The notes under the pieces are model-generated. The model saw nothing but the letters and a program-made list of their open reading frames with translations. It made no database searches and was not told where the DNA came from. This document shows positions 16,337-41,421 of a stretch of DNA of 45,302 bases, piece after piece. Every line of letters starts with the position of its first letter. The stretch's first letter is position 1. The stretch comes from Fictibacillus sp. FJAT-27399 (lineage in GTDB: Bacteria; Bacillota; Bacilli; Bacillales; Fictibacillaceae), in the NCBI RefSeq assembly GCF_001510655.1, contig NZ_LMVC01000002.1:1417991-1463292 (forward strand), written 5' to 3'. The position numbers and the translations under genes were made by a program.

Positions 16337-16346
16337 GAAACGTTTC
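16337..16346. promoter_or_regulatory. LacI-family operator before the GH144-type gene
   Basis: GAAACGTTTC, a perfect 10-bp palindrome identical to the four sites at 31521, 31597, 38400 and 38520. It lies 24 bases before the start codon, where bound repressor would block transcription. Confidence 0.75.
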
Positions 16347-16369
16347 TATTACCAAGGAGGCAGTATTCA

Positions 16370-17593
16370 ATGACCCCACTTACAAACGAACAATTGCTGG
16401 AGCTGGAGAGTAAACATTCTTTTTTATTTTTCTGGAATGAAACGAATACCGATTGCGGCAGCCCTGGGTTTGGCTTGATCCGGGACCGTGCACCGGGAGA
16501 CCCTGATATGTGTTCCGTCGCCTCGGTCGGCTACGGGTTAACCGCTCTTGTCATCGGTGCAGAACGGGAATGGATTTCAAGAGATGCAGCTTACGAACGT
16601 GCCGATGGAACACTAAACACACTATTATTAAATGCTGAAGAGGTTAATGGCTTTTTTTATCACTTTCTCTCGATGGAAACTGGAAAAAGGGCCAGAAAAT
16701 CAGAAGTATCCATCATCGACACAGCCATTGCTCTGTGCGGCGCAATGACAGCTGGAGAATATTTCGGTGGAAAGATTAAAGAAAAAACGCAGCAGCTTTA
16801 TGAACGAGTGAACTGGGAATGGTATCGGAACCCTGAGACGAACCAGTTTTATATGGGTTATACTCCTGAACGCGGGCACTGGGGGGCCTGGGACTTGTAC
16901 GCCGAGCAGTTCATGATGTATTTTCTTGCCGCCGCCTCACCGACACACCCCGTAAATCCGGAAATGTTTTATGACTTCCACCGGCAGGTCAGCTCCTATG
17001 GGGATGGGCCCTTATTCATTTATACATGGTTGGGCTCTCTCTTTACCTTTCAGTTCTCCCATGCCTGGTTTGATTTGCAGAACAAGACCGACCAGGATGG
17101 AATCGATTGGTGGGAAAATTCGGTTAAGGCCACACTTGCTCACCGGCAATATTGCATAGATGAATCGAAAACCTTTAAAACGTATGGTCCGAACTCCTGG
17201 GGACTGACAGCTTGTGACGGCCCTGCAGGCTACAGCGGAAGATATGGGGCGCCGCCTTCTGGAAGGGACGGTGCCAATGACCTGCATCATCCTGACGGAA
17301 CCGTCCCTCCAGCAGGCGCCATCGGATCCATTGTCTTTACCCCCCAAGAGAGCATGGAAGCGATGCAGCACTATTACAACAACGTTCCAGAGCTTTGGGG
17401 AGAATACGGTTTTATCGATGCTTATAACCTCGATGTTACCCCCGCCTGGTTTGGCACAAATGTCATCGGCATCGACAAGGGCATCTCTTTATTAATGATT
17501 GAAAACTACCGGAGCGGACTCGTCTGGAAATGGTTTATGAAAAATGAATATGCCCAAAAGGGACTGCAGCTTACCGGCTTTAAGATCAGCTGA
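16370..17593 (+). CDS. Glycoamylase-domain (GH144-type) glycoside hydrolase, intracellular
   Basis: 407-residue (alpha/alpha)6-barrel glycosidase. The C-terminal pattern LWGEYGFIDAYN, then NVIGIDKGISLLMIENYRSGLVWKWFM, is the hallmark of the Glycoamylase domain (PF10091), which includes the GH144 endo-beta-1,2-glucanases. Earlier parts SFLFFWNETN, GLIRDR and SVASVGYGLTAL also fit. There is no signal peptide, so it should act on imported oligosaccharides in the cytoplasm. The ATG follows AAGGAGG. The gene converges on the transporter operon and carries the same LacI operator, so it is probably co-regulated with it. Exact linkage specificity is inferred, not shown. Confidence 0.85.
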   Translation: MTPLTNEQLLELESKHSFLFFWNETNTDCGSPGFGLIRDRAPGDPDMCSVASVGYGLTALVIGAEREWISRDAAYERADGTLNTLLLNAEEVNGFFYHFLSMETGKRARKSEVSIIDTAIALCGAMTAGEYFGGKIKEKTQQLYERVNWEWYRNPETNQFYMGYTPERGHWGAWDLYAEQFMMYFLAAASPTHPVNPEMFYDFHRQVSSYGDGPLFIYTWLGSLFTFQFSHAWFDLQNKTDQDGIDWWENSVKATLAHRQYCIDESKTFKTYGPNSWGLTACDGPAGYSGRYGAPPSGRDGANDLHHPDGTVPPAGAIGSIVFTPQESMEAMQHYYNNVPELWGEYGFIDAYNLDVTPAWFGTNVIGIDKGISLLMIENYRSGLVWKWFMKNEYAQKGLQLTGFKIS

Positions 17594-17603
17594 GCTTCCT
17601 GTG

Positions 17604-17746
17604 AATCGGCATGTATTTGGCTGGGATCGGCATGTATTTGCGTGAGATCCGCATGTATTTTACCTAGATCGGATGTATTCTGAGAATCGCGCGTATTTTC
17701 CTCCAACCGGCGCGTAAATCCCTGCAACCCGCGCGTAACTACTCAC
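17604..17746. repeat. Degenerate tandem repeat of 21-bp units between convergent genes
   Basis: Seven head-to-tail units of 18-21 bases with consensus GATCGGCATGTATTTNCCTG. They start at 17604, 17625, 17646, 17667, 17685, 17705 and 17726. The first three keep CATGTATTT; the last three read CGCGTA. The 18-base fourth unit is a partial. Translated on the minus strand the best units give IHADxxQ heptads, but this frame looks non-coding. Confidence 0.8.
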
Positions 17747-17767
17747 CGCCGCTAAAAACGTCCAAAT

Positions 17768-17817
17768 AAAGCAGGCTTCCACCGTCACGAACCGTGACTG
17801 GCAGGAGCCTGCTTTTT
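17768..17817. terminator. Bidirectional terminator between GH144-type gene and permease operon
   Basis: Outer stem AAAGCAGGCT with AGCCTGCTTT (17768-17777 and 17806-17815) and an inner GTCACG/CGTGAC helix, with A and T runs on both sides. It serves the converging plus and minus transcripts. Confidence 0.8.
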
Positions 17818-17819
17818 CG

Positions 17820-18818
17820 TTATTCTCCAGAGATCCCCGTTTTGTCTGTGACCTCGACAAACCACCTTTGAGCAAAGAAGTACAGTATGAGCAGCGGTAA
17901 AATAACAAGCATGGTACCCGCAAGTTTGATGGATTCGTTAATGTCTGTTTTTGCAGACGCTGCCTGGCTGCCGCCGAACATGCTTTTAAACGCATCATTA
18001 AACTCCTGCAGTTTTAATGGCAGTGTGGACATGGCATCGCCTAGATAGAGAGAGGCCATATACGTTTCATTCCAATGCCAAACGAAAGAAAAGAGAAACA
18101 CAACAACCATAGCTGGCACTGAGATTGGAAGCACAATTCTAAAGAAGATTGAAATTCTTCCCGCTCCATCAATTTGCGCCGCCTCTTCTAATGCAACTGG
18201 AATCGACTTAAAGAATTGGGTATAGATCAGAATAAACAATGTACTCTTGATTCCCATCGCAAATACGGCAGGAACAATAAACGGCAGGGATGAACCCGTC
18301 ATTCCGTAGTTTTCAAATAATAGATAAAGAGGGATCATCACGACTTGCGCCGGAATGATAAAGGTAATAATCATCAGGGCAAACAGCACCGGTTTTCCTG
18401 GAAAGTTGAACTTTGCGAACCCGTACCCTACCAACGCACAGGAAATAGTTTGAGCCACAGCCGGTATCGCGGAATTTAACAGTGTCGTGCTCAACGTTTT
18501 TGGAAAATCAAGCACTTGCCAGGCTTGCACGTAATTTTCGATCGTAAACTCCCTCGGTATCCACATAACGGTCGGATCGAGCAGGTCATCCATGCTCTTA
18601 AAACTTTGTGAAACAATGAAGAGAATCGGATACAGATAGACGAAACCAATGCAGATTAATAGGTAATACGTAAAAAATTTAAAGACCAGGCCGTCGTTGC
18701 CCTGCTTGCCAAGCAGAAAACGTCTCGCACGGGTAAGCGGCAGCTTTTGGGCAAACTGGCTTTTTGTAAAAACAGAAACGGATGGAGTTACTTTTTCATG
18801 TTCTAAAATCGTCTTCAT
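17820..18818 (-). CDS. Carbohydrate ABC transporter permease, MalG type (second pair)
   Basis: 332-residue inner-membrane subunit of a CUT1-type importer, with six helices. The ATPase-docking EAA loop reads EEAAQIDGAGRISIFFRIVLP. The true start is ATG 18818, preceded by AAAGGAGGACAGCTTC; it overlaps the stop of the MalF-type gene as ATGA, so the two are coupled. The longer open frame to 18944 is not used. A 45-residue polar N-terminal tail precedes the first helix, and the last 35 residues contain an insertion (GGSQAASAKTDINE) before the final helix. No ATPase gene is nearby; a shared MsmX-type ATPase elsewhere is likely. Confidence 0.9.
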   Translation of the reverse strand: MKTILEHEKVTPSVSVFTKSQFAQKLPLTRARRFLLGKQGNDGLVFKFFTYYLLICIGFVYLYPILFIVSQSFKSMDDLLDPTVMWIPREFTIENYVQAWQVLDFPKTLSTTLLNSAIPAVAQTISCALVGYGFAKFNFPGKPVLFALMIITFIIPAQVVMIPLYLLFENYGMTGSSLPFIVPAVFAMGIKSTLFILIYTQFFKSIPVALEEAAQIDGAGRISIFFRIVLPISVPAMVVVFLFSFVWHWNETYMASLYLGDAMSTLPLKLQEFNDAFKSMFGGSQAASAKTDINESIKLAGTMLVILPLLILYFFAQRWFVEVTDKTGISGE

Positions 18819-19717
18819 GAAGCTGTCCTCCTTTTCATGCGGGGTTTTCGATAGCCCAGCTTTCGCTCCTTCTTTCCTTCCTTGTTCCTGAAAAAGAAAA
18901 AGATGATCAGGAGAATGACGAGAATCAAAGCCTGGTAGATCCATGAGAGAGCCGTCGCGTAACCAAAGCCTGTTTCAATCTTGAACATGTTTTCTTTAAT
19001 CGAATTGATTACATTGTTCACGGAGTTCGTGAACAGATCAACCGTGGTATAAATAAGATTTACAAGAATGAAAGGCTTTAAGCCAGGCAATGTGATCTTC
19101 CAGAACGTTTCCCATGGGGAAGCACCATCTATTGCTGCCGCCTCATAGATACTCCGGTTAATCTTTTGCAGTCCGGCAAGAAAAATCAAAATCTGAACTC
19201 CGGAAAACCACAAAATGAGAATAAATTTCTGAATCACCTCAATGATTGGATCGGCAAGACCGGGACCCATTGAATCTTTAATCATACTGACAATCCCGTA
19301 CTGTTCAACCATCGGTATGGTGCCAGCTCCTTGAGCGAAAAGTTCATTGATAACTGCGCCGCTAGAGATCACCACCGGCAGGAAGAACACTGCACGGAAC
19401 ATCCCCTTCATCTTAATCGGCTGGTTGATGAGCAGTGCGACAATCAATGAGAATATAACAACGATCGGTATCATGATCACCACAGTTTTTGTAAAATTAA
19501 ACACTTCGTCCATAAAATACGGATCTTTAAAAAACGCGTATTGATAGTTATCGAGTTTAATAAATTGCGATTTAATGCCTTCGGGTGTAATAAACACCTT
19601 CTCGAAGCTCATTTTCAGTGATGAATAGATCGGATAGGCCATAAAGAACAAGAAGCCGATCAGCCATGGCGAGATAAACAGCAACCCTGTCAAAGTGTCC
19701 TTTCGTCTGTTGGTCAT
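18815..19717 (-). CDS. Carbohydrate ABC transporter permease, MalF type (second pair)
   Basis: 300 residues with six membrane helices; the start TGLLFISPWLIGFLFFMAYPIYSSLKMSF is typical of MalF/UgpA-type subunits. The EAA loop is YEAAAIDGASPWETFWKITLP. The ATG follows GGGGGATAAGC and overlaps the stop of the DUF5696-like gene (ATGA). It forms a heterodimer with the MalG-type protein encoded next. The binding protein that serves this pair is not adjacent; the lipoprotein gene at the head of the operon is the likeliest candidate. Confidence 0.9.
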   Translation of the reverse strand: MTNRRKDTLTGLLFISPWLIGFLFFMAYPIYSSLKMSFEKVFITPEGIKSQFIKLDNYQYAFFKDPYFMDEVFNFTKTVVIMIPIVVIFSLIVALLINQPIKMKGMFRAVFFLPVVISSGAVINELFAQGAGTIPMVEQYGIVSMIKDSMGPGLADPIIEVIQKFILILWFSGVQILIFLAGLQKINRSIYEAAAIDGASPWETFWKITLPGLKPFILVNLIYTTVDLFTNSVNNVINSIKENMFKIETGFGYATALSWIYQALILVILLIIFFFFRNKEGKKERKLGYRKPRMKRRTAS

Positions 19718-22041
19718 TGCTTATCCCCCTTTTTCAAAACCAGAAAGTCTCTTGCACCGATCTTATGCCCGTTTACTTCTGCAGCTTTTGATTCGTAGTT
19801 TACCAGGATCACCGCTCCGTTAGAATACGTCACTTCAACGAGTCCCGGCTGAACGACTTTTCTCTGATCAATTGTTTCACCGGATACTTCGCTTAGCGGA
19901 GCTTTAACTCTTTCGTAAATACGCTTTGCGTCCTTCAGCCAGTCCTTATAGTAAGAGGCTGCTAGATTTTTTGATGGACCGCCGCTTAAAAGATGGGACG
20001 GCTGTTTCGTAAAATAAAAGGAAGGAAATGCACCAGTCTCCACCATTTTAAGAACCGTTTCATCCTCGTCCGCTGCAAAGTTCAGCGGGGTACTGTAGTA
20101 ATCCATATAACCGTGCAGCACCATCTGAACAAAAGGAACCGTATCCGTTGCATACATGTATTGAGAAGAACTCATTTCAATATTGTAGATTTTCGATGCG
20201 TGTTTTAAGAGAAATGCGTTTGGATTATACAGCGCAAGTTTTCCAAGTCTTTCATGAAGCTGATCAGCCAGTTTCATATAATCCGTTGCCGCTGACTGCC
20301 TGTCTGTCGGATGTTTCTTATGATAATCAGAAAACAGCAGAGAACTTGTATTCTCAAGTGCTGCGCCTGCAGATGGAATACCTTTTAAGTTTGCTGCATC
20401 CTCCTCTGCTAAAGTGACGGCTTTCCCAGGTGTGATGTAATATCGTTCAAGATCTGTCTTTTCCTTCTCGAAGGGATCTGAGCCTACTTTTTGAATCAAT
20501 ACCTGGTTGGTGATCTTGCGTGCCCCTTCCGTTTTCTCATCAAAGTTATCTGCCCCATCATATCCGTACGTATAATCGAGCTGCAGAGACAGTGACGAAC
20601 CTTGATTCTTCAGGACTTTTGCCAGACGTTTTAAACCTTCTGGACCGCCAAGCTGATCAGCTGCCGGAAATTTCTGAGGATTGCTGCCGGTCAGCCCGCC
20701 ATCTCCCCAGCCGCGCAGAAGAATATCGAGGTTGTCCAATCCATAGTCATTTAGTTTCTGCGTGATTTGTTTTACATCCTTAAACGATGTCATTTCCACA
20801 TATTTTTTTCTGAAAAGCCCTTTTTCCATTTCACCGCCAAGGAATTCAACGTGGGCTGGCACGTCTTTCCTGGAGACTTTCTGCTTTTTCAGTATGCCTT
20901 TTTGTTCAAGGTAGCTTCGGTAGGATTTGGCCATCCCGGTATACGATGCACCTTCACCTTCCAAGAAGTTATACCTGACCTGCATGTCGTTAAGAATGCG
21001 GGACTTCTGGTACGTATTATATCCGCCCATATTTTTGCTCGTCGGCTGGAAATAGGCATTGCGAACGATAAACCGGGGGGCAATCCAGTTGAAATTCGTA
21101 TTGAGCCCGGATGGATAAGCAACGATTTCCGAATTGTACTGGCCCTTTTCCACGATGCCAAGAAATCCATTCTGTCCTTCGCCATGAACGGCGCCAAAGA
21201 CCGGCATCGTCACAGGAACATTACGGATATCCGCTAGCCCAGGCGGGTTTACAGAATAATCCTGGCCATAAATCCTTCCGACAAATGGCTCATCGTATGA
21301 GACGGAAGGCTTCTGATAGCGGATCAATGCTCCGCTGCCGTCAGGAATCATCATATATCCCGGGAGATCATCGAGTCTTGTACTTCCGAAAAACGGATAA
21401 ACATAAAGGTTAGCGATCTTGCTATCTTTTTCTTTCCATTCGTTTTGAGGTATCTTGAGGACGAGCTGGCTGCCCTCTACTTTGACTTGGATGAGAAATG
21501 ATGTTTTCATTTGATGAAGATTCACTCGAAATTGAAAGCCTTCTGGAATGGCTTTTACATCCTCAATCGCACCGCCAAGCGATGCCAGGCTTCCTCTTTC
21601 GATCCCGGCATTATCATTAAAGTATTCGACCATGATTGGAGATTGGACGAGTTTGTTCCAATCATCGTTGAGGGATTCTTTTGCCAGCATTTCTTTTGAA
21701 GGATACGAACTCCACACATATCCCGTTTTTTTGTTCTTCACCATGATCCCCATGGTCTTCGGCTCCGCATAAAGCTCCAAAGCAGAGGTTGAGGCTTCTT
21801 TTTTATACCCTGCTGGAATGCGGGGAGACTTTACTGTTTTTTGTTTTTGGTCAGGCTGGGTGTATCGGTTGGAACTAAGTTCTACCAATGACAGTTCTTC
21901 GTGCTTTTTCAGCAGTTGCTGCGGCGGCACATCTTTCGTTCTTGAAAAAAGCCCGGAAGCGCCCGTCACGCCGGTAGAGATCAGCAGGAGAACAGCTAGC
22001 AGTCCGCCGATCACAGCTTTTTTTACAGTAAACTTAAACAC
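19714..22041 (-). CDS. Membrane-anchored DUF5696-like protein, glycosidase-like architecture
   Basis: 775 residues, function unproven. Residues 9-28 form one membrane anchor, so the rest is extracytoplasmic. Residues about 85-385 look like a beta-sandwich (GYMMIPDGSGALIRY, MPVFGAVHGEGQNGFLGIVEKG). Residues about 395-700 look like an alpha/beta barrel with acids at likely strand ends: Asp447 in RGWGDGG, Asp489 in QLDYTYGYDG, Glu563 in ALENTSS and Asp572. A small beta domain (725-770, VTYSNGAVILVNY) closes it. This order is seen in several retaining glycosidase clans. The start is GTG at 22041 with GGAGGTG upstream; it overlaps the preceding gene by eight bases. It may cut or present a polysaccharide for the importer; that is inference. 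Confidence 0.72.
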   Translation of the reverse strand: MFKFTVKKAVIGGLLAVLLLISTGVTGASGLFSRTKDVPPQQLLKKHEELSLVELSSNRYTQPDQKQKTVKSPRIPAGYKKEASTSALELYAEPKTMGIMVKNKKTGYVWSSYPSKEMLAKESLNDDWNKLVQSPIMVEYFNDNAGIERGSLASLGGAIEDVKAIPEGFQFRVNLHQMKTSFLIQVKVEGSQLVLKIPQNEWKEKDSKIANLYVYPFFGSTRLDDLPGYMMIPDGSGALIRYQKPSVSYDEPFVGRIYGQDYSVNPPGLADIRNVPVTMPVFGAVHGEGQNGFLGIVEKGQYNSEIVAYPSGLNTNFNWIAPRFIVRNAYFQPTSKNMGGYNTYQKSRILNDMQVRYNFLEGEGASYTGMAKSYRSYLEQKGILKKQKVSRKDVPAHVEFLGGEMEKGLFRKKYVEMTSFKDVKQITQKLNDYGLDNLDILLRGWGDGGLTGSNPQKFPAADQLGGPEGLKRLAKVLKNQGSSLSLQLDYTYGYDGADNFDEKTEGARKITNQVLIQKVGSDPFEKEKTDLERYYITPGKAVTLAEEDAANLKGIPSAGAALENTSSLLFSDYHKKHPTDRQSAATDYMKLADQLHERLGKLALYNPNAFLLKHASKIYNIEMSSSQYMYATDTVPFVQMVLHGYMDYYSTPLNFAADEDETVLKMVETGAFPSFYFTKQPSHLLSGGPSKNLAASYYKDWLKDAKRIYERVKAPLSEVSGETIDQRKVVQPGLVEVTYSNGAVILVNYESKAAEVNGHKIGARDFLVLKKGDKQ

Positions 22042-24094
22042 GGGCTTTCACCTCCGAAAGTATGGCATCCACAAAATCATACAGCTGGTTGGTTAAACCG
22101 AACATCATAAATCCGATCAGCCCGAGAATCCCCATTCCCGCAAACGTCAAAAAGATATTTTTCACCGTCTGTCCGAGCTCAAACCGGTGAATTTCCTTCA
22201 CCATCAGAAACATAAGCAGAGCGGTCCAAACGATCATTCCATAGCGGGCGATGTCATACAGTACAGATTCCATCAGGGTGAGGCCGTTGGAAACAATGGA
22301 CACCGGTATGCCTAAAAAGATATACGGGCTGAACGCATAGGCTGTACCGATATAGACATCCTTAAATTTCCCTTTCCCGTCATTGATTGTGCTCACCAAA
22401 TAGTTGGCAATGATCCAGACGGTAATGGGCACACTGATTTTCCAAAACTCATTCAGCAGTTTGACCTGCTGTGGATCCTGTGAACTGAACAGGAAGTTCG
22501 TATAAAGAAGATCGATGAAATAGACAACTAATAAAGCCAAATATAAAAGAGTAGCCATAAGAACAGAACCTTTGCCTTTATGCATGAGCTCCCAGTAGCC
22601 TTCGATCGGATGTCTCATGATTCTGAAAGCCTGAAGAAACTGTGAAACATGCTTCTGCTTTCTGGCACGCAGCCAAAGCTTTCTTACTCCGGCTCCCATT
22701 CCTTTTTTTCGATATAGCAGTTTCATAGCATAATAGGCAGCAAGCATGATGATCCCTGCAATGATAAAAGAAGAAGTGTGCTCAAGCATCCATTTTCTTC
22801 TGATCTCCCAGTAAGCAGTGGAATAGCCTTCAATGTCCTTTGAAATCGAAAAACGCGCTAAAGCTTCTTCGTATTTCCCCTTTTTTAAAGCCGCCATTCC
22901 CATCCCCTGATGCGCAAGCCCAAACATGCTGTTATACTTGAGAACTTCCTTCCAATACCCTTCACTTTTTTCATAGCGTCCTTCCGAATAATAGGACATT
23001 GCTTTATGCACAAGATTGGCATAGGCGGTCGGCTGGAACACTTGAATGGCTCCGCGCTGTTTGTCGAGGACAAATACCCGGCCCTTCGAATTAACTGCAA
23101 TACCCGATGGGTTTTTCGTCAATCCGAGCCGCTGGTTCCCGCTGTCCCCGCCGCTGAAACAAAAAATCAGGTTCCCCTCTGAGTCGTACTCATAGATGTA
23201 GCCGTACTCCCCGTCCACGGTATATATGTTGCCCAGGGGGTCAACGGTAACATCAGAAAGGCTCGGACTATTCATAACTGAGGGAATAAGATTTGATCCA
23301 GAGATGTTCAGTTTCTTTATTCCGCCGGTATCCGATCCAATGGTGCTCGTGTAGATCAGTCCTTCGTCATCAATCGCCAGGTTGCTCGCTGAGGGAGGCC
23401 TTTTGCTTTCCAGTTTTTTCAGCTGTTCCTTCGTATAAAGAACGTTTTGTATTTTCCGTTTCAAGTCAAAGGATGTCTGGTTGGCACCAAAGTAACCCAG
23501 GAATTCTCCTTTCGGACTGAGCTGGGCCAAGCCCTCGACAGATCCTTCCAATACGGTATACAGGTTTCCACGCTTGTCGACGATTACTTTTTTCGGAACA
23601 AAATTGGTGTCCTTTCCAAAAAGGACGGAGTTTGGCTTTCCAAACTCATTGATCTTCTTGCCGTTCGCATCGAATTCGTATAGCTTTTGGCTTCCGTAAT
23701 CCGAAACAAACACATGGCCGTTATCCTTAACAAACACACCCGTGGGCTGTGTCAGAATCCCTTTTCCGATGCTCTTGCTGAACTGGCCATCAGGTTTCAG
23801 TACGGCAATTCTGGCATTTCCTGCATCAGCCACGTAGATGGAATCGTGCTGATCAATAAAAATATCTTCGGGCTGCGAGAAAGGCTGAAGTTTTTCTTTT
23901 CCAACGCCTTCTGTATTCCCGATGGAAGCAAGCCCGTTAATCATCCCTGTCGGAAGGTAGGCATCCTGTGTCGTGATCCACTCTCCATCCGGATTGATGG
24001 TATACGTATCATAAGGTGCAGAAGCCTGCGCTGTCTCAGGCACCAGGAGGAGGGAAATGAACAGAACCACTATGATTTTTTTTAACACGGTCAT
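22034..24094 (-). CDS. NHL beta-propeller, TPR and Yip1-domain membrane fusion
   Basis: 686 residues combining parts not usually joined. Residues 1-25 are a signal peptide. Residues about 60-355 hold repeated NHL-type units (QPEDIFIDQHDSIYVADAGNARIAVLKPDG, TQPTGVFVKDNGHVFVSDYGSQKLYEF, NPSGIAVNSKGRVFVLDKQRG), forming an extracytoplasmic propeller. Residues 360-420 are two TPR-like helix pairs (YSEGRYEKSEGYWKEVL, KKGKYEEALARF). One helix at 441-460 crosses the membrane, and residues about 490-680 form a five-helix Yip1-like domain. ATG 24094 has its GGAGG only two bases away; the in-frame GTG at 24088 has better spacing and may be the real start. Its place between permease genes suggests a transporter accessory or sensor. 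Confidence 0.78.
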   Translation of the reverse strand: MTVLKKIIVVLFISLLLVPETAQASAPYDTYTINPDGEWITTQDAYLPTGMINGLASIGNTEGVGKEKLQPFSQPEDIFIDQHDSIYVADAGNARIAVLKPDGQFSKSIGKGILTQPTGVFVKDNGHVFVSDYGSQKLYEFDANGKKINEFGKPNSVLFGKDTNFVPKKVIVDKRGNLYTVLEGSVEGLAQLSPKGEFLGYFGANQTSFDLKRKIQNVLYTKEQLKKLESKRPPSASNLAIDDEGLIYTSTIGSDTGGIKKLNISGSNLIPSVMNSPSLSDVTVDPLGNIYTVDGEYGYIYEYDSEGNLIFCFSGGDSGNQRLGLTKNPSGIAVNSKGRVFVLDKQRGAIQVFQPTAYANLVHKAMSYYSEGRYEKSEGYWKEVLKYNSMFGLAHQGMGMAALKKGKYEEALARFSISKDIEGYSTAYWEIRRKWMLEHTSSFIIAGIIMLAAYYAMKLLYRKKGMGAGVRKLWLRARKQKHVSQFLQAFRIMRHPIEGYWELMHKGKGSVLMATLLYLALLVVYFIDLLYTNFLFSSQDPQQVKLLNEFWKISVPITVWIIANYLVSTINDGKGKFKDVYIGTAYAFSPYIFLGIPVSIVSNGLTLMESVLYDIARYGMIVWTALLMFLMVKEIHRFELGQTVKNIFLTFAGMGILGLIGFMMFGLTNQLYDFVDAILSEVKARV

Positions 24095-24101
24095 TTCCTC
24101 C

Positions 24102-24974: not shown

Positions 24975-25003
24975 GCAGTTCAGCTCCTTCATGAGGAAGT
25001 AGG

Positions 25004-26014: not shown

Positions 26015-26024
26015 TTACGTCACC

Positions 26025-29024: not shown

Positions 29025-29042
29025 GGCAATAACTCCTTTATG

Positions 29043-29084
29043 AAGGTAAGGCCCCTCCTGATGCAGGAGGGAGCCCGGTACCTT
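29043..29084 (-). other. Intercistronic stem-loop between the two binding-protein genes
   Basis: AAGGTA (29043-29048) pairs with TACCTT (29079-29084), and CCCTCCTG (29053-29060) with CAGGAGGG (29064-29071). No T-run follows on the minus strand, and the next ribosome binding site comes soon after. This resembles the mRNA-stabilising or attenuating hairpins found after binding-protein genes in ABC operons. Confidence 0.7.
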
Positions 29085-29086
29085 GC

Positions 29087-30433: not shown

Positions 30434-30509
30434 TTTTATCCCCCTCATGTTTGTTTTCACTCTTTAAAACCCGATTCATTGACTACATCCAGTCCCCCGC
30501 TCACCTCCT

Positions 30510-31502: not shown

Positions 31503-31520
31503 TGAAACCTCCAGCCGGTT

Positions 31521-31530
31521 GAAACGTTTC
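31521..31530. promoter_or_regulatory. LacI operator, proximal to the LacI gene
   Basis: GAAACGTTTC, a perfect palindrome 18 bases upstream of the LacI start codon, fitting autoregulation. Confidence 0.75.
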
Positions 31531-31596
31531 GAATTTAGGTAAAATAAATGACCTTTGTTATTGAGTTAATACCTTTATCTCTTCTCCATTTTTAGT

Positions 31597-31606
31597 GAAA
31601 CGTTTC
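31597..31606. promoter_or_regulatory. LacI operator, distal
   Basis: A second GAAACGTTTC 76 bases from the first. Paired sites may allow looping. It lies between the LacI gene and the 3' end of the alpha/beta hydrolase gene. Confidence 0.7.
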
Positions 31607-31649
31607 TATTTTTTTCATCATAGCAATCACTAATTATAGAATCGATCTA

Positions 31650-32300
31650 TTATTTATAATTTTCTGAATTATTATACTGGAGGAACCATTCATAAAGACG
31701 GTCATTGTCATACGTTTCACTCCATGAATCGTGTCCAGCATCAGGATAAATGGTGATCCTGACTTCCGCCTTTTCCTTTTGAAGAGCATGAACCATGGAT
31801 TGTGATTCCTCCACAGGAATGATGTCATCCTTTTCTCCATGAAATACCCAGATTGGCAGATTCCTTAAGCCAGCTGCCTTTTCGGGTTGAGTTTTCCCGC
31901 AAACAGGGGCAATGGCGGTCAACATATGCGGATACTGTATAGCAAGATTCCATGTTCCGGCCCCTCCCATGCTCAGCCCTGTCACATACACCCTGTCTGG
32001 ATCTGCATGAAATGCCTGAATGCAATACAGCAAAAGCTCCTTCAGTGTGTCCGCTTCATCTGCCCATTCTGAATCCTCCGGACATTGAGGCGAGATGGTG
32101 ATAAACGGAAAGGAATCGGCTGCACCTGCTTTCTTGGGTATGCCGTATTTTTTAAGAAGGTTCAAATTCGTCCCCCGCTCCCCCCTCCCATGGAGAAACA
32201 AAATAAGCGGCGGCGGCTCTTCTCCATAATATGTGGGCTTAGACAGCAGAAAAGGAAGCGTCTTTTTCTTGCCTGTAAATTCCCTGTGTTCAAGAATCAT
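31650..32300 (-). CDS. Alpha/beta-hydrolase (carboxylesterase, CE1/PHB-depolymerase-like)
   Basis: 216 residues, intracellular (no signal peptide). The triad is visible as Ser110 in GLSMGG, Asp158 in HGEKD and His190 in DAGHDSW; the oxyanion strand LILFLHGRGERG precedes. Such small esterases often remove acyl groups from sugars or oligosaccharides. The ATG overlaps the stop of the YesL-like gene (TAATG), so it belongs to the GH35 operon. Deacylation of the imported glycan is inference. Confidence 0.85.
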   Translation of the reverse strand: MILEHREFTGKKKTLPFLLSKPTYYGEEPPPLILFLHGRGERGTNLNLLKKYGIPKKAGAADSFPFITISPQCPEDSEWADEADTLKELLLYCIQAFHADPDRVYVTGLSMGGAGTWNLAIQYPHMLTAIAPVCGKTQPEKAAGLRNLPIWVFHGEKDDIIPVEESQSMVHALQKEKAEVRITIYPDAGHDSWSETYDNDRLYEWFLQYNNSENYK

Positions 32301-32926
32301 TAGGCTGTCACCTCGTCATTTTCGTCTATTTTCATTACGATTCGCTGGGTTCTCCATGTCAGCCAAGCCGTAATGGCACTGATTCCAAAAAACGGCATCA
32401 ATGATGGGAGCTTAATCAGGATCACCGTAATGGTCATTGTGCCCAGTATCGTAAACAAGGTTTGCAGCGGATGGACCATCGCGATCGAAAAAGCATATTT
32501 CCAGTACTGAAAGAAGCTCAGACGGTAATGGGTGAAGACAGGAAAGATATAAATGATTGCCATGGCAATCATGATAAACAAAAGGATCGACAGAGCTGAG
32601 AAAATAAAGAACACAGCAGATGACTTGCTCGAAAAATAGATAAAGTCCAGATAAAGTACGAAAATTAATAAAAAAGAAATCCATCCATAAGTTTGAGAAC
32701 TTATAAATGTCTGCCTGTACTCCTTCCAAAACACTGCAAATACCGGAAACTCCTCCTGCGATCTGATCCAGCGCCTGCATACCGAGAAGGCAGCAGCTGT
32801 TGCCGGTGAAAAACCGGCAACTACCGCACCCAAAAGCGTAAATAAAATCCAGAGGATGTTAACGTAAGCCAGTCTCATCAGCCAATTACACACTTCCATC
32901 ATCGGAAGGTTTCTCCAGGTATTCAT
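32300..32926 (-). CDS. YesL-like (DUF624) membrane protein
   Basis: 208 residues with five or six helices. The start MMEVCNWLMRLAYVNILWILFTLLGAVVAGFSPATAAAF is diagnostic of DUF624/YesL proteins, which are common in polysaccharide-use operons of bacilli (YesL in the rhamnogalacturonan locus). The exact role is unknown. The ATG follows GGGGGATGTCGGT. It overlaps the hydrolase gene by a shared base. Confidence 0.85.
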   Translation of the reverse strand: MNTWRNLPMMEVCNWLMRLAYVNILWILFTLLGAVVAGFSPATAAAFSVCRRWIRSQEEFPVFAVFWKEYRQTFISSQTYGWISFLLIFVLYLDFIYFSSKSSAVFFIFSALSILLFIMIAMAIIYIFPVFTHYRLSFFQYWKYAFSIAMVHPLQTLFTILGTMTITVILIKLPSLMPFFGISAITAWLTWRTQRIVMKIDENDEVTA

Positions 32927-32948
32927 ACCGACATCCCCCTTTTTACAT

Positions 32949-34052
32949 TCAAGCTAAGTCTACGAACAGCGACTGAAAACCAGCCAGAGGCTCCGGCTTG
33001 TCACACCGTGTTTCGAGCTCTAGAAAACGTTCCTGATCCGATGAATCTATGATCTTCTCCATGACCTCTAATACGTGCAAACCAAGTTCTCCACTGCAAA
33101 GAAACGGCCGCCTTTCTTCAATCCCTGCTATCATGTCAGCTAATCCTATTCCTCTGCAATTTCCGCTGAGTGTACTGATTAAAGGGGCTTCCTCCCATTC
33201 GTCTGTTTCTTGGTTCATGTAGTAGACAGGCCCATCAAAACCATTTGGATCTGGCAGGATTAGCGTTCCCTTCGTACCATAGATTTCGATTTTTGGCAGC
33301 TTCGTTTCCCACACGTCAAAGCTTGTCATAAACGTCGCGTTTACTCCATTTCCAAATTGAAGCAGTGAGGATACGTATGTCGGAACCTCTACCTTAATTT
33401 TTTTCCCGGCAAGCGGCTTGCTAGTAATCTCTCTTTCAGGTACTGTGATCTTATTCATGGAAACGGCTTTTTTCACTGGGCCCAGCAAGCTGATGAGAGC
33501 AGTGAGATAATAAGGGCCAAGGTCAAAAAGCGGCCCGGCACCCAGCTTGTAAAAAAACTCGGGATTGGGATGCCAGCTTTCGGGCCCTCTTCCCAGCATG
33601 AAGGCAGAAGCCCCCACGGGTTCACCGATCACCCCTTGGTCCAGAAGGTAACGGCACGTCTGCAGCCCTGCTCCTAAAAAGGTATCAGGAGCTGTCCCAA
33701 GGCAGAGGCCCAGCTGCTTCGCCTTCTCCATAACCTTTAAGCCTTCGCTGCAGCTAATAGCGAGAGGTTTCTCTGAATAGACATGCTTGCCGGCCTGCAG
33801 AGCCATCATGCTTACCTCGGCATGTGCTGCAGGAATGGTCAAATTTACGATTAAATCAATATCATCCTTTGCAAGCAGGTCAGATACCGTGCCGGCAAAG
33901 GAAATCTGATGCTTGGCTGCCTGCTCTTCTGCACGATTTATATTGAGGTCGGCAACACCTGTTATTTCATAGTTTAAGAATTTCTTTGGAGAAGAAAGAT
34001 AGATATCACTGATACTTCCTGTTCCAATTACACCTATTTTCGCTTTATTCAT
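32949..34052 (-). CDS. Gfo/Idh/MocA-family dehydrogenase (distal)
   Basis: 367 residues. The nucleotide-binding start IGVIGTGSISDIYL is the Rossmann glycine loop, and SEKPLA (about 94-99) carries the family Lys-Pro. These enzymes oxidise or reduce sugar hydroxyls with NAD(P), often making 3-keto sugars. The ATG follows AGAAACGGTGAAACG; the GGTGA part is a possible ribosome site, while its GAAACG pair resembles half-operators. It follows the isomerase gene by 13 bases in one operon. Confidence 0.9.
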   Translation of the reverse strand: MNKAKIGVIGTGSISDIYLSSPKKFLNYEITGVADLNINRAEEQAAKHQISFAGTVSDLLAKDDIDLIVNLTIPAAHAEVSMMALQAGKHVYSEKPLAISCSEGLKVMEKAKQLGLCLGTAPDTFLGAGLQTCRYLLDQGVIGEPVGASAFMLGRGPESWHPNPEFFYKLGAGPLFDLGPYYLTALISLLGPVKKAVSMNKITVPEREITSKPLAGKKIKVEVPTYVSSLLQFGNGVNATFMTSFDVWETKLPKIEIYGTKGTLILPDPNGFDGPVYYMNQETDEWEEAPLISTLSGNCRGIGLADMIAGIEERRPFLCSGELGLHVLEVMEKIIDSSDQERFLELETRCDKPEPLAGFQSLFVDLA

Positions 34053-34065
34053 CGTTTCACCGTTT

Positions 34066-34821
34066 CTATTTTAAAAGTTCATGAAGTACCTTGGCGTTCT
34101 CCTTGGCTGCGGTTTCCAGATCGGTTTCAAAATGCTCCTGCTCCACTACAAACCAGGAGACATTCAGATCATTGCCCTTCTTGACAATCGTCGTAAGATC
34201 CAGCTCGCCTGTTCCGAGGATCGTGCTTTGCTTCTCTGTTCCTTTTACCGCCATATCCTTCATGTGGAGCGTGACAAGCCTTTCGCCGAGCCTCTCCATG
34301 AATTCAGCAGGATCATAGCCAGAATAAGCAGCCCAGTAGCAGTCCAGTTCAAAGGAAACGAGTGAAGGGTCTGTTTCAGACAAAAGAATATCGTATCCAG
34401 TCGTCTCTCCATGTTTAGCGAACTCAAAATCATGGTTGTGATACCCGAGCTTCAATCCTTCACTCTTCAAAAGATGTCCGGCATGATTCAAGGTTTCTGA
34501 CACACGTTTATAATCATCGAGGTTCTTCCGGTTTTCTTCGGCCAAATACGCGAGGATCAGCAGGTCATTCCCAATTTCATGGCTGTATTCGATCTGTCGT
34601 TTAAGCTCGTCTTCTTTCAGCTGATCAAGTCCTGTATGGCTGCCGGCGGGTTTCAGTCCAAACTCATTCAATGCCTGCTTCAGCTGTTTGGCCTGGAGAT
34701 CATAGAAACCCGCGAACTGGGCACCTTCATATCCCCATTCTGAAACCTTCCTTAACGTACCGATAAAGTCCTTTTCACATAACTCTCTGATGGTATAAAG
34801 CTGTAATCCTTTTCTTTGCAT
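34066..34821 (-). CDS. Sugar isomerase/epimerase (AP-endonuclease-2 TIM barrel)
   Basis: 251-residue TIM barrel of the xylose-isomerase-like/AP_endonuc_2 group, which bind a divalent metal. Signature segments are GLQLYTIRELCEKD, GYEGAQFAGFYD, GYHNHDFEF (about 136-144, metal-ligand His), FELDCYWAAYSG and LVTLHMKDMAVKG. Relatives isomerise keto-sugars or inososes, and some cleave 3-keto glycosides by elimination. Its place between two Gfo/Idh/MocA genes hints at a shared redox pathway. The ATG follows AAGGAGG. Confidence 0.88.
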   Translation of the reverse strand: MQRKGLQLYTIRELCEKDFIGTLRKVSEWGYEGAQFAGFYDLQAKQLKQALNEFGLKPAGSHTGLDQLKEDELKRQIEYSHEIGNDLLILAYLAEENRKNLDDYKRVSETLNHAGHLLKSEGLKLGYHNHDFEFAKHGETTGYDILLSETDPSLVSFELDCYWAAYSGYDPAEFMERLGERLVTLHMKDMAVKGTEKQSTILGTGELDLTTIVKKGNDLNVSWFVVEQEHFETDLETAAKENAKVLHELLK

Positions 34822-34834
34822 GGCATTAGCCTCC

Positions 34835-35881
34835 TTAATGCAGAAGCGCTTTCGTCTCCTGTGTCTTTACAATCGTTTTTGTCTGGCTGGATTCCAGAGC
34901 AGCAAGTACTACGCTCAAGGATTTCAAGCCTTCTGTGCCATTAACAGGCGGTTCTTCGTTATTTAAAACACTCTTTATAAAAGCATCAATTACATGAGAA
35001 CTGTGCTGGCCGCCTGCGTCGTTCGTCTGAATCTTATCAAGCTCATATTTCACAACTTCCCCGCTCGTGTACTGTGCAATCAGAGAATACTGAGGATCAT
35101 CCTCCATTCTCAAAATTCCCTTTTCACCATAAATGATGGTGGAATTGTCGGCATGGTAGTAAGACCAGCTTGCTGCAAGTGTCCCAATGATTCCGTTTTC
35201 AGATTTCAAAATGCACACGGCATTGTCATCTACATCGGTATCGGCTTTGGCCAGTGTCTCAACAAATGATCCGACTTCTATAATTTCTTCTCCGATCAGG
35301 TAGCGGATCAAGTCCGTTTTATGTACCCCCAGGTCACCCATGGCACCGATGAACGCTTCATTCTTTCTGAAAAACCAGCTGTTCCTTCCGTCAACGCTCC
35401 ATCCTTCAGGGCCGCCATGACCAAAAGCCGTACGGAAACTGTAGATTTTTCCGATCGCACCGGACACAATCAACTCTTTCGCTTTCACATGCGCTGCGGC
35501 AAATCGCTGATTATGGCCAATCATCAGTTTTTTTCCGTTTTTGGCAGCAGCCTCAATCATCTGCTCCCCTTCTTGCCTTGAAGTGGCCATCGGTTTTTCA
35601 CAAAGAACATGTTTGCCGGCATTCAATGCTGCAATGGTAACAGGCGCATGAAGATAATTGGGAAGGCAGACACTAACTGCATCCAGTTCTTCCATTTTTA
35701 ATAGCTCCTGATATTCTGTGAAGGCCTTTGCCCCATATTGATCAGCATATGCCTGCGCTCTTTCTGGCACGAGATCGCAAACGGCCGCGAGCTCCACATT
35801 CGGATTAGCATCATATTCAGGCAGATGTCTGTACTTTGCAATCGTTCCGCACCCGATTACCCCAACTTTAAGTTTTGTCAT
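34835..35881 (-). CDS. Gfo/Idh/MocA-family dehydrogenase (proximal)
   Basis: 348 residues. It begins TKLKVGVIGCGTIAKYRHLPEY (Rossmann fold) and has CEKPMA at about 97-102 and GHNQRF soon after. The start is ATG 35881, preceded by GAGGGAGGAATTC; the longer open frame to 36001 would overlap the GH35-like gene and is not used. It is only distantly similar to the other family member downstream, so the two probably act on different substrates or steps. Confidence 0.92.
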   Translation of the reverse strand: MTKLKVGVIGCGTIAKYRHLPEYDANPNVELAAVCDLVPERAQAYADQYGAKAFTEYQELLKMEELDAVSVCLPNYLHAPVTIAALNAGKHVLCEKPMATSRQEGEQMIEAAAKNGKKLMIGHNQRFAAAHVKAKELIVSGAIGKIYSFRTAFGHGGPEGWSVDGRNSWFFRKNEAFIGAMGDLGVHKTDLIRYLIGEEIIEVGSFVETLAKADTDVDDNAVCILKSENGIIGTLAASWSYYHADNSTIIYGEKGILRMEDDPQYSLIAQYTSGEVVKYELDKIQTNDAGGQHSSHVIDAFIKSVLNNEEPPVNGTEGLKSLSVVLAALESSQTKTIVKTQETKALLH

Positions 35882-35894
35882 TTGAATTCCTCCC

Positions 35895-38357
35895 TCAATT
35901 TTGTGCTGCTGTTTCGATTTCTTTTGCCAGTCCTTCTGAAACCTGTTGAACATGAATGACCAGGTGATCATCAACCTTGGCATGTTTCCTTGATGTAACA
36001 ATGGTCAGTCCGTCTTTCTGTTCAACCTGTATATCAGCCGACGGTACAACCTTTGTGTTTCCTTCAAAAACGATCATGTCCTCTTTTTGTGTCAGCCTGA
36101 AGGCCATTTTATCAGGGTTTACTTCTGTGATCTCGGCGGTAGAAAAAGCGATTTCAACACCATTTTTCAATCTCATATTCACTGGAAGCATGAGCCCATC
36201 CTTGCTTTGCAGCAGAAGCTTCTTACCACCAAACAAAGGCTTTTCATCAAGATAAAGGTGCAGCTCTTTATCAAGGCCGTCGAGATTCAGGAGATGGCAG
36301 AACTGTTCTCCATCCTCATTTGCTGTTGATGTTAGAAAAATACCGTGGTCTTTGAAATCATGCTTCAGACGAGCTTTAGCCCCCAGCCTCTCGAGTGCTT
36401 CTGTAAACAATGGAATATCACAGCTGTAAGCCGCGCCTATAATAATTGCCTTTCCATGGCCATACGCGGCTTCAAATCCGCATACTTCATCGGTGCCATA
36501 AACCTTCAAGATCGGTTCAGCCTTTCCGATATCAAAAGTCTGGGCGGTATGGCTCCTCACTTCCGGCCGCGGCGCTGCCCATCCAGCTGCAGTAAGGGAT
36601 AAATAATAATGGGCTGATTCCTTTCTCGTTCCCGCCGGAATTACACCAAGTGCACCAGCTAACACTGTACATGGCTGACCCACCATGTCATAGACAGGGA
36701 CTTCTCCGTAGAGGAGCAAGCCTCCTCCATCCCGAACATAATCGGAAAGTTTCTCCTGAATTTCAGGATCCATATATCTTGCTGAGGGGAGAGCTAAAAC
36801 TGGTGTTTTCTTCGGGTCCAGCGGTTTGTTTTGAATATCTGCTGCTCCGAAACGATAACCGGCAAGCAGCATCGCCCGGCCCATGATCTCCCATCCACCG
36901 CCGGCACGATGACTCTCAATGTTACGGAGGATCTCTTGCATTTTGCTGCTTTTAGGATAATGGGACTCTGTCATGTAATAGTCAGGGATAAACCCAAAGG
37001 CCACAGGGTCATGTTCTTCTTTCATGACAGCCAGTTTATCAGAAATAGCCATCATGGTTTTCGTAACTCTTGCCATACGAGGATAGGTGTAATTCAATTC
37101 TCCCTCAGGGCTTACAGGAGCTGCGAATCCATGCCGTTCACCGGTAAAAGCAATCCTGTCATTTCCATCGTTCAATCCCTGATCCATCCTGTAATTGCGG
37201 CCTCCGGCAAACAAATAAAAGTTAATCAGGCGGTTTCCTTGTGCCATACACATTCTGATTTTAAAATCGACGGCTGATGGATCATAGCGGTCACTGTAGG
37301 TCGTTCCAAAATTCCCGTCACCGCAGTTAAATTCCACAGAGGTAAGCGGCTGGTCCTCCAGGTGAACGGCATCCATGAAGCCGTTTATTAAATAAAGGTC
37401 CTGAAAGGTCGTCATATTCAAGTCGCCAAAATAAATATCCGATCCGGACAAATATCCTGGATTTTGTGTATACGATTCATAAAGCTGGCTGATTCCGATC
37501 GGATACGTGAGTGCTCTTCCCCCGCCTGTACCATGGATATTGATCACAAACGGAATGTCCTTCACCCCGAACTCCTCAGCATAGGCCCGAAGCTTGGCGA
37601 CATATCTGCTAAACCGGTGCCTCATATAACGGCCCAAATCCCTCATTAGCTCAGAAGCATACTCTTCTTTAGGGGAGCGGATCTGTTCGTTTCTGGCATC
37701 TTGCGCTTCAAATAAAAACGGATAACGCTGCTTCAGCTTCTGTTTTTCAACCTTTAGCTGAAGCCATCCTGAAAAGTCCTCAAGCAGCTGATCTGTCAGG
37801 TCAGGCGAGTTGCTTACCCATGAAAGCATGCCAATTTCATTATCAAGCTGAACAGCGATTACATTTCCACCGTGCTGATGCAGTCTGGGCTCGATTACAC
37901 CCATAATGTGCTGGAACCATCCGCGGGTTTCCTTTAGAAAAGCTGGGGCGAGATAATCAATGGTTCGTGTTGATACTGCTCCTCCATCCCATGTAACCGG
38001 GATGATTTCCGGGTGCTTTTCGTATACCCAATAGGGAATTCCTTCGTTTTTCATTTCTGCCATGATGAACGGGCCGGGTCTCGCAAAGAAATAGAGGCCA
38101 TTTTCATGGCAAAGATCAATGAAACCTCCGATATCCAGTTCAGGACGGGACTGGCCAGTCAGGTCCACTTCTCCTTCCACTGCTTCATGGCAAAGCCATG
38201 GAATATAGGATGCGACAGCATTGCAGCCTGCTTCTATTAATTTGGTGATGCGGTCTTGCCAGTCGCTTCGGTCAAGTCTATAGTAATGAATCTCACCGCA
38301 CATGAGGATTTCGGGTTTTCCGTCAATGATGATTTGTTTATTCTTGATTTCAATCAT
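35895..38357 (-). CDS. GH35-like glycoside hydrolase, intracellular
   Basis: 820 residues. The N-terminal barrel has GH35 landmarks: IIDGKPEILMCGEIHYYRLDRSDW, YIPWLCHEAVEGEVDLTG, and FARPGPFIMAEMKNEGIPYW. Likely catalytic acids are Glu174 (VQLDNEIGML, acid/base) and Glu342 (TSVEFNCGDGN, nucleophile). Beta domains follow from about residue 480. There is no signal peptide, so it acts inside the cell. GH35 is best known for beta-galactosidases, but beta-1,2-glucosyl-active members exist. The ATG follows TTGGAGGAGTCCT. It is the first gene of its operon, with two LacI operators and a cre-like site upstream. Confidence 0.85.
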   Translation of the reverse strand: MIEIKNKQIIIDGKPEILMCGEIHYYRLDRSDWQDRITKLIEAGCNAVASYIPWLCHEAVEGEVDLTGQSRPELDIGGFIDLCHENGLYFFARPGPFIMAEMKNEGIPYWVYEKHPEIIPVTWDGGAVSTRTIDYLAPAFLKETRGWFQHIMGVIEPRLHQHGGNVIAVQLDNEIGMLSWVSNSPDLTDQLLEDFSGWLQLKVEKQKLKQRYPFLFEAQDARNEQIRSPKEEYASELMRDLGRYMRHRFSRYVAKLRAYAEEFGVKDIPFVINIHGTGGGRALTYPIGISQLYESYTQNPGYLSGSDIYFGDLNMTTFQDLYLINGFMDAVHLEDQPLTSVEFNCGDGNFGTTYSDRYDPSAVDFKIRMCMAQGNRLINFYLFAGGRNYRMDQGLNDGNDRIAFTGERHGFAAPVSPEGELNYTYPRMARVTKTMMAISDKLAVMKEEHDPVAFGFIPDYYMTESHYPKSSKMQEILRNIESHRAGGGWEIMGRAMLLAGYRFGAADIQNKPLDPKKTPVLALPSARYMDPEIQEKLSDYVRDGGGLLLYGEVPVYDMVGQPCTVLAGALGVIPAGTRKESAHYYLSLTAAGWAAPRPEVRSHTAQTFDIGKAEPILKVYGTDEVCGFEAAYGHGKAIIIGAAYSCDIPLFTEALERLGAKARLKHDFKDHGIFLTSTANEDGEQFCHLLNLDGLDKELHLYLDEKPLFGGKKLLLQSKDGLMLPVNMRLKNGVEIAFSTAEITEVNPDKMAFRLTQKEDMIVFEGNTKVVPSADIQVEQKDGLTIVTSRKHAKVDDHLVIHVQQVSEGLAKEIETAAQN

Positions 38358-38399
38358 AGGACTCCTCCAAGGCTAAATTTGGAATGAAACGCTTTTGGT

Positions 38400-38409
38400 G
38401 AAACGTTTC
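38400..38409. promoter_or_regulatory. LacI operator, GH35 operon (proximal)
   Basis: GAAACGTTTC, 43 bases upstream of the GH35 start codon, just downstream of the likely promoter. A related half-site, GAAACGC, lies 14 bases closer to the gene. Confidence 0.75.
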
Positions 38410-38451
38410 GAAACACGTTAAAAAAAATTTTTATTAAATACTCGAACCCCT

Positions 38452-38465
38452 TGCAATCGCTTTCA
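38452..38465 (-). promoter_or_regulatory. CcpA cre-like site at the GH35 operon promoter
   Basis: On the minus strand TGAAAGCGATTGCA fits the cre consensus TGWAARCGYTWNCW with one mismatch (A for Y). It overlaps a possible -35 (TTGCAA, followed 17 bases later by TAAAAA), so catabolite repression is likely. Confidence 0.6.
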
Positions 38466-38519
38466 ACTAATGGTTTGCCTAGTCGTTTTACAGAAAAATC
38501 CAGAGGGCTGCTAAGAATT

Positions 38520-38529
38520 GAAACGTTTC
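38520..38529. promoter_or_regulatory. LacI operator, GH35 operon (distal)
   Basis: A second GAAACGTTTC, 120 bases from the proximal site. The cre-like site lies between them, an arrangement suited to looping repression. Confidence 0.7.

Positions 38530-39376: not shown

Positions 39377-41421
<2,045 letters not shown>

Follow-up and report, generated by a model that had tools for sequence, protein, structure and literature searches.

A putative uptake and cytosolic breakdown locus for beta-1,2-glucan in Fictibacillus sp. FJAT-27399 that shares its operator with a second locus

The window analysed here, a stretch of 45,302 nucleotides from Fictibacillus sp. FJAT-27399 (contig NZ_LMVC01000002.1, positions 1,417,991 to 1,463,292), contains at 16337–38529 a glycan locus with genes of glycoside hydrolase (GH) types GH144 and GH35, a LacI-family regulator and a composite set of importer genes. 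Together with a second locus on contig C10 of the same genome (4.50 Mb, 13 contigs), it probably makes up a beta-1,2-glucan regulon in which the window locus has the part of uptake and cytosolic breakdown. An earlier note on this DNA had guessed at a beta-1,2-glucan or related route, and this guess is supported, at the level of sequence, by the conserved residues of the GH144-type protein, the likeness of the GH35 protein to the beta-1,2-glucosyltransferase IaSGT, the operators held in common with C10 and the co-occurrence of the two families in 42 of 45 relatives. If true, the proposal would explain beta-1,2-glucan use in some Gram-positive bacteria, bring 3-keto-elimination chemistry under one regulon with GH144 and GH35, and provide a first function for a seven-gene membrane module that recurs across Bacillota; the two-locus regulon also makes the substrate directly testable.

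Operators common to two unlinked loci

The 10-bp palindrome GAAACGTTTC occurs in five exact copies in the window, all of them intergenic. Exact copies stand upstream of each of the three transcription units inferred from gene order, in agreement with the earlier claim of shared operators.

16337–16346: operator GAAACGTTTC, ending 23 bp ahead of the GH144-type gene
31521–31530: operator GAAACGTTTC, upstream of the LacI unit
31597–31606: operator GAAACGTTTC, upstream of the LacI unit
38400–38409: operator GAAACGTTTC, upstream of the GH35 unit
38520–38529: operator GAAACGTTTC, upstream of the GH35 unit
30510–31502, minus strand: LacI-family regulator (Pfam/NCBIfam)

With up to one mismatch allowed, 11 copies were found in the window against 2.0 expected, a number reached in none of 100 shuffles, and each of 19 other palindromes made from a permuted half-site had no copy in the window. 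Genome-wide there are 19 exact sites: five in the window, five on contig C10 (at 122242, 127083, 127140, 127284 and 127352, so placed that each C10 unit is preceded by the palindrome) and nine others, eight of which lie inside predicted open reading frames (ORFs). Ten of the 19 fall within the 0.73% of the genome occupied by the two loci (P = 4e-17 under uniform placement, a nominal value since operators bounded the stretch). The LacI proteins of the two loci are 38% identical and have in common, in the DNA-binding part, the string ST.SYALN, which we take to be where the recognition helix is expected. The window and C10 genes thus appear to be co-regulated though unlinked, as judged from these sites.

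The C10 locus encodes a secreted GH144-type enzyme, alongside two permeases, a solute-binding protein (SBP), GH3, SOGP (1116 aa) and the second LacI protein.

C10 ~122286–123629: PF10091 protein with signal peptide, secreted GH144-type

Its SBP matches Lin1841 (E = 2e-146) and its GH3 protein matches Lin1840 (E = 1e-234). In whole-genome searches SOGP, which has the SOGP domains, was the sole GH94 protein; PF10091 proteins numbered two, one in the window and one on C10, and GH3 genes numbered four, of which C10 has one and the window has none. The earlier note was right that the window lacks GH94 and GH3, which it named as usual partners in such loci; both are in the genome, however, on C10 under the same operator, and absence from the organism as a whole was rejected. 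A SOGP-type locus, with GH94 and GH3 together, is present on C10 and not in the window.

Two enzymes related to beta-1,2-glucan-active proteins

The nearest solved relative of the GH144-type protein was XCC2207 (E = 2e-59), which is XcSGL (PMC12102758; this and the other papers cited by accession are drawn on in excerpt).

16370–17593, plus strand: GH144-type gene (PF10091; Pfam/NCBIfam), putative beta-1,2-glucanase
35895–38357, minus strand: GH35/GLMA-like enzyme, nearest IaSGT, signal peptide not seen

Residues were mapped by our reading of the alignment to XcSGL, for which E239 is described as the general acid along with the residue roles of clan GH-S (PMC12102758), and were compared across 62 GH144-type sequences from the relatives' loci, the window and C10. 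Glu179, at the position of XcSGL E239, was kept in 62/62 homologs; Asp117, at the position of CpSGL E142 and a candidate base, was kept in all 62, and Phe225, at the position of the clan phenylalanine XcSGL F286, was likewise found in 62/62. The loop bearing XcSGL Y367 aligned poorly, and its candidate equivalent, Tyr292, is a tyrosine in 33 of the 62. Simple tests found no signal peptide or hydrophobic segment in the window protein. The protein is a putative cytosolic endo-beta-1,2-glucanase. Enzymes of the SGL clan are argued to require that subsites −3 and +2 both be occupied (PMC12102758); an endo-type GH144 in the cytosol would be understandable if the cell took up long or cyclic chains.

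The closest solved relative of the GH35 protein is IaSGT, aligned over residues 7–667 (E = 1e-56). All seven of the −1-subsite and catalytic residues reported for IaSGT (Y52, E102, N175, E176, N275, E343 and Y378; PMC8861115) are kept in the window protein as Y51, E101, N173, E174, N273, E342 and Y381, and are invariant in 10 sequences. As IaSGT Arg349 is not kept (see below), IaSGT is named as the closest solved relative only, and its transferase activity is not assigned to the protein. A second GH35 clade, with 31–35% identity, occurs near the block in other loci, and a 4.2-kb contig of Bacillaceae bacterium Marseille-Q3522 carries two adjacent GH35-type ORFs.

A predicted 3-keto-glucoside branch

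Between the LacI gene and the GH35 gene lie five further genes, of which the two Gfo/Idh genes and the TIM barrel are predicted to form a side branch of glucoside metabolism.

31650–32300, minus strand: alpha/beta-hydrolase esterase, predicted cytosolic (Pfam/NCBIfam)
32300–32926, minus strand: DUF624 membrane protein, weakly MusI-like
32949–34052, minus strand: Gfo/Idh/MocA oxidoreductase B, GfoB (Pfam/NCBIfam)
34066–34821, minus strand: xylose-isomerase-like TIM barrel, candidate OGE-type 3-keto-glucoside beta-eliminase
34835–~35881, minus strand: Gfo/Idh/MocA oxidoreductase A, GfoA (start moved from 36001), nearest solved relative DgpA

The mechanically listed ORFs 34835–36001 and, in the importer module below, 17820–18944 begin too early. 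Pfam and NCBIfam assignments bear out the gene inventory given earlier (glycosidases, esterase, dehydrogenases, permease pairs, binding proteins and membrane proteins), with a correction for the protein that had been called an isomerase, since the TIM barrel resembles an eliminase instead. Its best solved match, 8bvk, is the 3-keto-O-glucoside beta-eliminase AtOGE, in which His132, Asp163, His189 and Glu233 form the Mn site and His134 is catalytic (PMC10628242). All five positions are intact in the window protein (H128, D160, H186 and E227, with H130) and are kept in 14/14 homologs, and by these residues it is most likely an OGE-type 3-keto-glucoside beta-eliminase. The relationship of GfoA to DgpA suggests a glucoside 3-dehydrogenase, and GfoB is suggested to be either a 3-keto reductase or a second dehydrogenase. 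A 3-keto pathway is also reported from Bacteroides.

A second 3-keto-glycoside-type operon, with ThuA, two Gfo/Idh genes and a TIM-barrel gene (TIM322), lies unlinked at C1:82820–86626 (6821–10627 of locus L242), and no GAAACGTTTC was found in the surrounding 20 kb. TIM322, at C1:85658–86623, roughly equals in reported size the hydratase LgdB2, which belongs to the levoglucosan pathway of B. smithii (PMC7676230); from its size it may be LgdB2-like, in which case the C1 operon could supply a hydratase.

Of the 80 relatives' loci described below, 14 have a sulfatase-family gene no more than 10 kb away from GH35, 12 of them at 35% or more identity to a copy in genome G182 that carries the string CAPSR. 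One such gene, at 14733–16193 of L042, has similar genes in L151, L166, L168–L170, L174 and L208, near GH35 and a divergent GH144. Speculatively, the operon esterase and these sulfatase-family genes would fit substituted glucans.

A seven-gene importer module with DUF5696

The importer genes of the window are arranged in a module with the order large SBP–P2b–P2a–YIP1–DUF5696–P1b–P1a, next to an SBP of ordinary size.

17820–~18818, minus strand: permease P1a, importer module (start moved from 18944)
18815–19717, minus strand: permease P1b, importer module (Pfam/NCBIfam)
19714–22041, minus strand: DUF5696 (PF18952), single N-terminal membrane helix with a GH129-like fold outside
22034–24094, minus strand: YIP1 (NHL-TPR-Yip1), hydrophobic N-terminus, NHL repeats, TPR and Yip1 membrane domain
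24102–24992, minus strand: permease P2a, importer module (Pfam/NCBIfam)
25004–26014, minus strand: permease P2b, importer module (Pfam/NCBIfam)
26025–29024, minus strand: 999-aa SBP, beta-rich N-terminal part, helical part and C-terminal SBP domain at ~584–980
29087–30460, minus strand: ordinary-size SBP, lipoprotein-type (Pfam/NCBIfam)

These comprise two binding proteins and four permeases of the ATP-binding cassette (ABC) importer type, and no ATPase was found among the scanned genes of the window locus. MsmX-type ATPases are shared between importers in Bacilli, and a MalK-like ATPase at C6:1723985–1725076 is 54% identical to an ATPase adjoining another copy of the module. The structural model of the 999-aa SBP has a mean predicted local distance difference test (pLDDT) score of 70.6, and in the Foldseek search its second-ranked match was the sophorooligosaccharide binder 5yse, followed by a cycloisomaltooligosaccharide binder in third place; because many maltose-type binders score alike, no ligand is drawn from this ranking.

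Matches to DUF5696 above the Pfam cut-off were found in 40 of the 249 order-level genomes and in 26 of the 299 phylum-level genomes. Outside the GH35 block there are 24 strong DUF5696 loci, of which 20 were used (G081:C483, G123:C20, G164:C65:27385 and G184 were left out); a 25th, in G060, is a short match and not among the strong ones. The full seven-gene module was present in the same order in all 20, with YIP1 as one gene or two. The GH10-type genes beside modules at G059, G051 and G087 (assigned by Pfam for G059 and by eye for the others) lack a signal peptide, although at G051 and G087 a lipoprotein-type gene is a neighbour as well. At phylum level, among 20 regions drawn from the 26 genomes above the cut-off, a YIP1-type gene and DUF5696 were found in 20/20, both P1 permeases in 17/20, and the large SBP, accompanied by a P2 permease, in 15/20. 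A shorter module, YIP1–DUF5696–P1b–P1a, occurs in some Bacillota (L217, L218, L219 and L222). The large SBP and P2 pair are absent from these four and from L224, which stops just past DUF5696; these five of the 20 phylum regions count against a fixed seven-gene unit. Among the papers searched, none names DUF5696 or describes an NHL-TPR-Yip1/DUF5696 module.

The AlphaFold model of DUF5696 (mean pLDDT 87.6) resembled GH129: in the Foldseek search the top 11 chains were all GH129 (best E = 5e-35, template modelling score normalised to the target 0.72–0.77), and a profile search gave a weak match (E = 1e-5). By our reading of one hidden Markov model (HMM) alignment, ZgGH129 D486 aligns to S567 of DUF5696. 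The only acids kept in at least 95% of 37 sequences were D234 and E668, and no acid was invariant across the parts of the barrel compared in 66 sequences, the best being D572 (55) and D633 (D or E in 61). An ordinary GH129 hydrolase is thus unsupported by acid conservation, and D563, D572, D633 or E668 could still serve. Because the GH129 catalytic acids are not evidently kept, we read DUF5696 as a GH-derived, membrane-anchored glycan-handling subunit; it is probably not a hydrolase, with a shifted active site being possible. We tentatively suggest, at rather less than even confidence, that the module represents a hitherto undescribed type of composite ABC importer among the Bacillota, which would take up whole long or cyclic glycans for cytosolic endo-enzymes, here long or cyclic beta-1,2-glucan.

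Conservation across relatives

Among 397 genomes of the order, 47 had a match to the GH35 protein, and 45 of these matches fall in its close clade; the matches in G048 and G175 (33% identity, second clade) are excluded from the 45, and with them included 42/47 have PF10091. PF10091 itself was found in 73 of the 397, and it accompanied the close GH35 in 42 of the 45 genomes (Fisher P = 4e-33, nominal as the genomes are related).

Twenty order-level regions were annotated, with gene labels in relatives' loci being the best BLAST or HMM matches of mechanically called ORFs, and 17 of these contain the close GH35. All seven module genes are present in 14/17; the other three, from one genus, have three to four of the seven at the region edge. 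A window-type GH144 (at least 50% identity) is found in 11 of the 17 and directly adjoins GH35 in 10, with three further regions having only a short GH144 match (34–39%). SOGP or GH3 is present in 13 regions and neither in four.

The second sample comprised 80 loci of named or metagenome-assembled genomes (MAGs), that is 80 of 137 relatives; 16 of these loci are under 22 kb, some share a genome or come from near-identical MAGs, and some belong to genomes also represented among the 20 annotated regions (for example L143 and G082), so that the counts overlap. A window-type GH144 (at least 45% identity) was found in 39 loci and another PF10091-type gene only in 12. Within 10 kb, 62 loci have a GH144-type, SOGP or GH3 gene (SOGP in 24, GH3 in 24), 49 have at least three module genes and 17 have none of these. 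PF10091 was found elsewhere in 12 of the 13 genomes checked for those 17 loci, with six of the 13 PF10091 matches lying in open frames of more than 600 aa that need not be simple GH144. The GH144–GH35–importer block recurs in many Bacillales genera, and a unique combination was rejected; the earlier statement that the combination had not been described stands in that our literature search found no paper on it, but the locus itself is widespread.

Among named relatives, the GH35 gene is closest to that of Fictibacillus terranigra, at 85%, with F. fluitans next at 73%. F. fluitans has the same order GH35–Gfo–TIM–Gfo–DUF624–esterase–LacI–SBP–large SBP, with two exact operators before GH35 and one before LacI, and its genome contains DUF5696 and two PF10091 genes. 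In F. terranigra (L133), GH35–Gfo–TIM–Gfo follows a long same-strand run that includes DUF624, SDR and another Gfo/Idh gene.

Proposed route and alternative explanations

In the proposed regulon the LacI proteins would release both loci upon a beta-1,2-glucan signal. The C10 locus would then cut extracellular glucan and import short oligomers, and the window module, with the giant and ordinary SBPs and an ATPase shared from elsewhere in the genome, would import beta-1,2-glucan that is longer or cyclic and perhaps substituted. In the cytosol GH144 would cut the imported glucan, the esterase would remove acyl substituents, the GH35 enzyme would transfer or release beta-1,2-glucosyl units, and SOGP and GH3 would complete chain breakdown. 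GfoA, the OGE-like TIM barrel and GfoB may handle glucosides not taken by the hydrolases, through a side route of oxidation, elimination and reduction.

Several observations weigh against this proposal. Three of the 45 close-GH35 genomes have no PF10091 match. F. terranigra has GH35–Gfo–TIM–Gfo genes that are 84–91% identical with different genes upstream, no exact GAAACGTTTC in its 15.6-kb locus, no DUF5696 and, of PF10091 proteins, the secreted type only, with no window-type GH144; of two other genomes of the genus, G306 lacks GH35 and DUF5696 but has a window-type GH144, and G219 lacks all three. Because these genomes have partial sets, the branches are separable and can travel apart, and the GH35/3-keto branch may serve other glucosides too. 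Arg349 of IaSGT, a subsite +1 residue that contacts the +1 glucose and varies among homologs (PMC8861115), is replaced by G348, invariant in 10 sequences, and the GH35 donor or acceptor may therefore differ. Several loci of Paenibacillus and Cohnella have a neighbouring GH144 that carries a signal peptide. The window's ordinary SBP is weakly Lin1841-like (E = 6e-9) and 25–30% identical to block SBPs in the other annotated regions, except for 48% in G167. Other module copies neighbour GH10, GH43 and arabinofuranosidase-type genes; since it adjoins such xylan- or arabinan-type genes, the module alone does not prove beta-1,2-glucan.

It is fairly unlikely that the window importer takes short linear sophorooligosaccharides only, as a redundant or differently tuned second system, with GH144 trimming leftovers. 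An ordinary sophorooligosaccharide importer is already present on C10, and the divergent window SBP is no obvious long-chain binder, both of which fit that explanation; the subsite occupancy attributed to SGL-clan enzymes (PMC12102758) means, however, that a cytosolic one wants long substrates, the 999-aa SBP is retained with the rest of the module in 14/17 regions, and beside some other module copies the GH10-type genes are signal-less, with secreted genes also present there. Somewhat less likely still is a GH35–Gfo–TIM–Gfo–esterase operon devoted to another beta-glucoside, such as glucosides from plants or microbes or glycolipids that contain sophorose, and merely co-regulated. The acceptance of aryl- and alkyl-glucosides by IaSGT (PMC8861115), the action of AtOGE on a 3-keto flavonoid glucoside (PMC10628242), the esterase, the loss of Arg349 and the F. 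terranigra gene set, with neither DUF5696 nor window-type GH144, all favour it. Its operators are nevertheless those of SOGP, and GH35 adjoins the window-type GH144 in 10/17 regions, several of them without visible Gfo/TIM genes.

The operator itself could be a generic LacI-type site, the sharing of which would not make one regulon. Many regulators of the LacI family have GAAACG half sites, and the two loci are served by two different LacI proteins. We regard this explanation as very improbable, given the rarity of exact sites in a 4.5-Mb genome, the location in ORFs of eight of the nine outside the two loci, the retention of operators at matching places in F. fluitans and the string common to both regulators.

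Other features of the window

Outside the locus the window contains four further features.

1794–2065, plus strand: T-box leader (Rfam, 97 bits), upstream of ORF 2165–3796
41505–41616, minus strand: thiamine pyrophosphate (TPP) riboswitch, upstream of thiC at 39613–41406
41824–43179, plus strand: GT2 glycosyltransferase, weakly PgaC/IcaA-like, adjoining thiC
43580–44737, minus strand: fatty acid hydroxylase and DinB domains in one protein, an odd pairing

Comparison with known systems

The C10 locus resembles lin1839–lin1841 of Listeria innocua in having Lin1840 and Lin1841 relatives with SOGP, under the operator of the window. The window differs from the Listeria locus in lacking GH94 and GH3 and in its extra cytosolic GH144, GH35, composite importer and Gfo/TIM branch. 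The Ignavibacterium album cluster that encodes IaSGT (GH144, GH94 and GH35; PMC8861115) likewise combines a GH144-type gene and an IaSGT-like GH35 with SOGP-type and ABC genes. In contrast to that cluster, described in the excerpt with a TonB-dependent transporter, the window has the DUF5696/Yip1 module, lacks Arg349 and has its GH94 and GH3 partners unlinked.

The 3-keto branch has a Gfo/Idh and sugar-isomerase-like TIM-barrel composition in common with LgdA–LgdB1–LgdB2–LgdC of B. smithii (PMC7676230), and the OGE metal site and catalytic histidine in common with the Agrobacterium AtOGE operon (PMC10628242). As far as the excerpts describe those systems, the window branch differs in lying inside a putative beta-1,2-glucan regulon, with the hydratase-type TIM322 outside the operon.

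The DUF5696 model fits the GH129 glycosidases NagBb and ZgGH129 over most of its length, whereas the protein has 13–14% identity to them, does not evidently keep the catalytic acids, is membrane-anchored and is found with permeases. The uptake route proposed for the module resembles cycloisomaltooligosaccharide uptake through TdCIBP, in which a cyclic glucan is imported whole and cut inside (PMC13084667); that system, in the part of the paper drawn on, uses one ordinary SBP, whereas a seven-gene module is proposed here.

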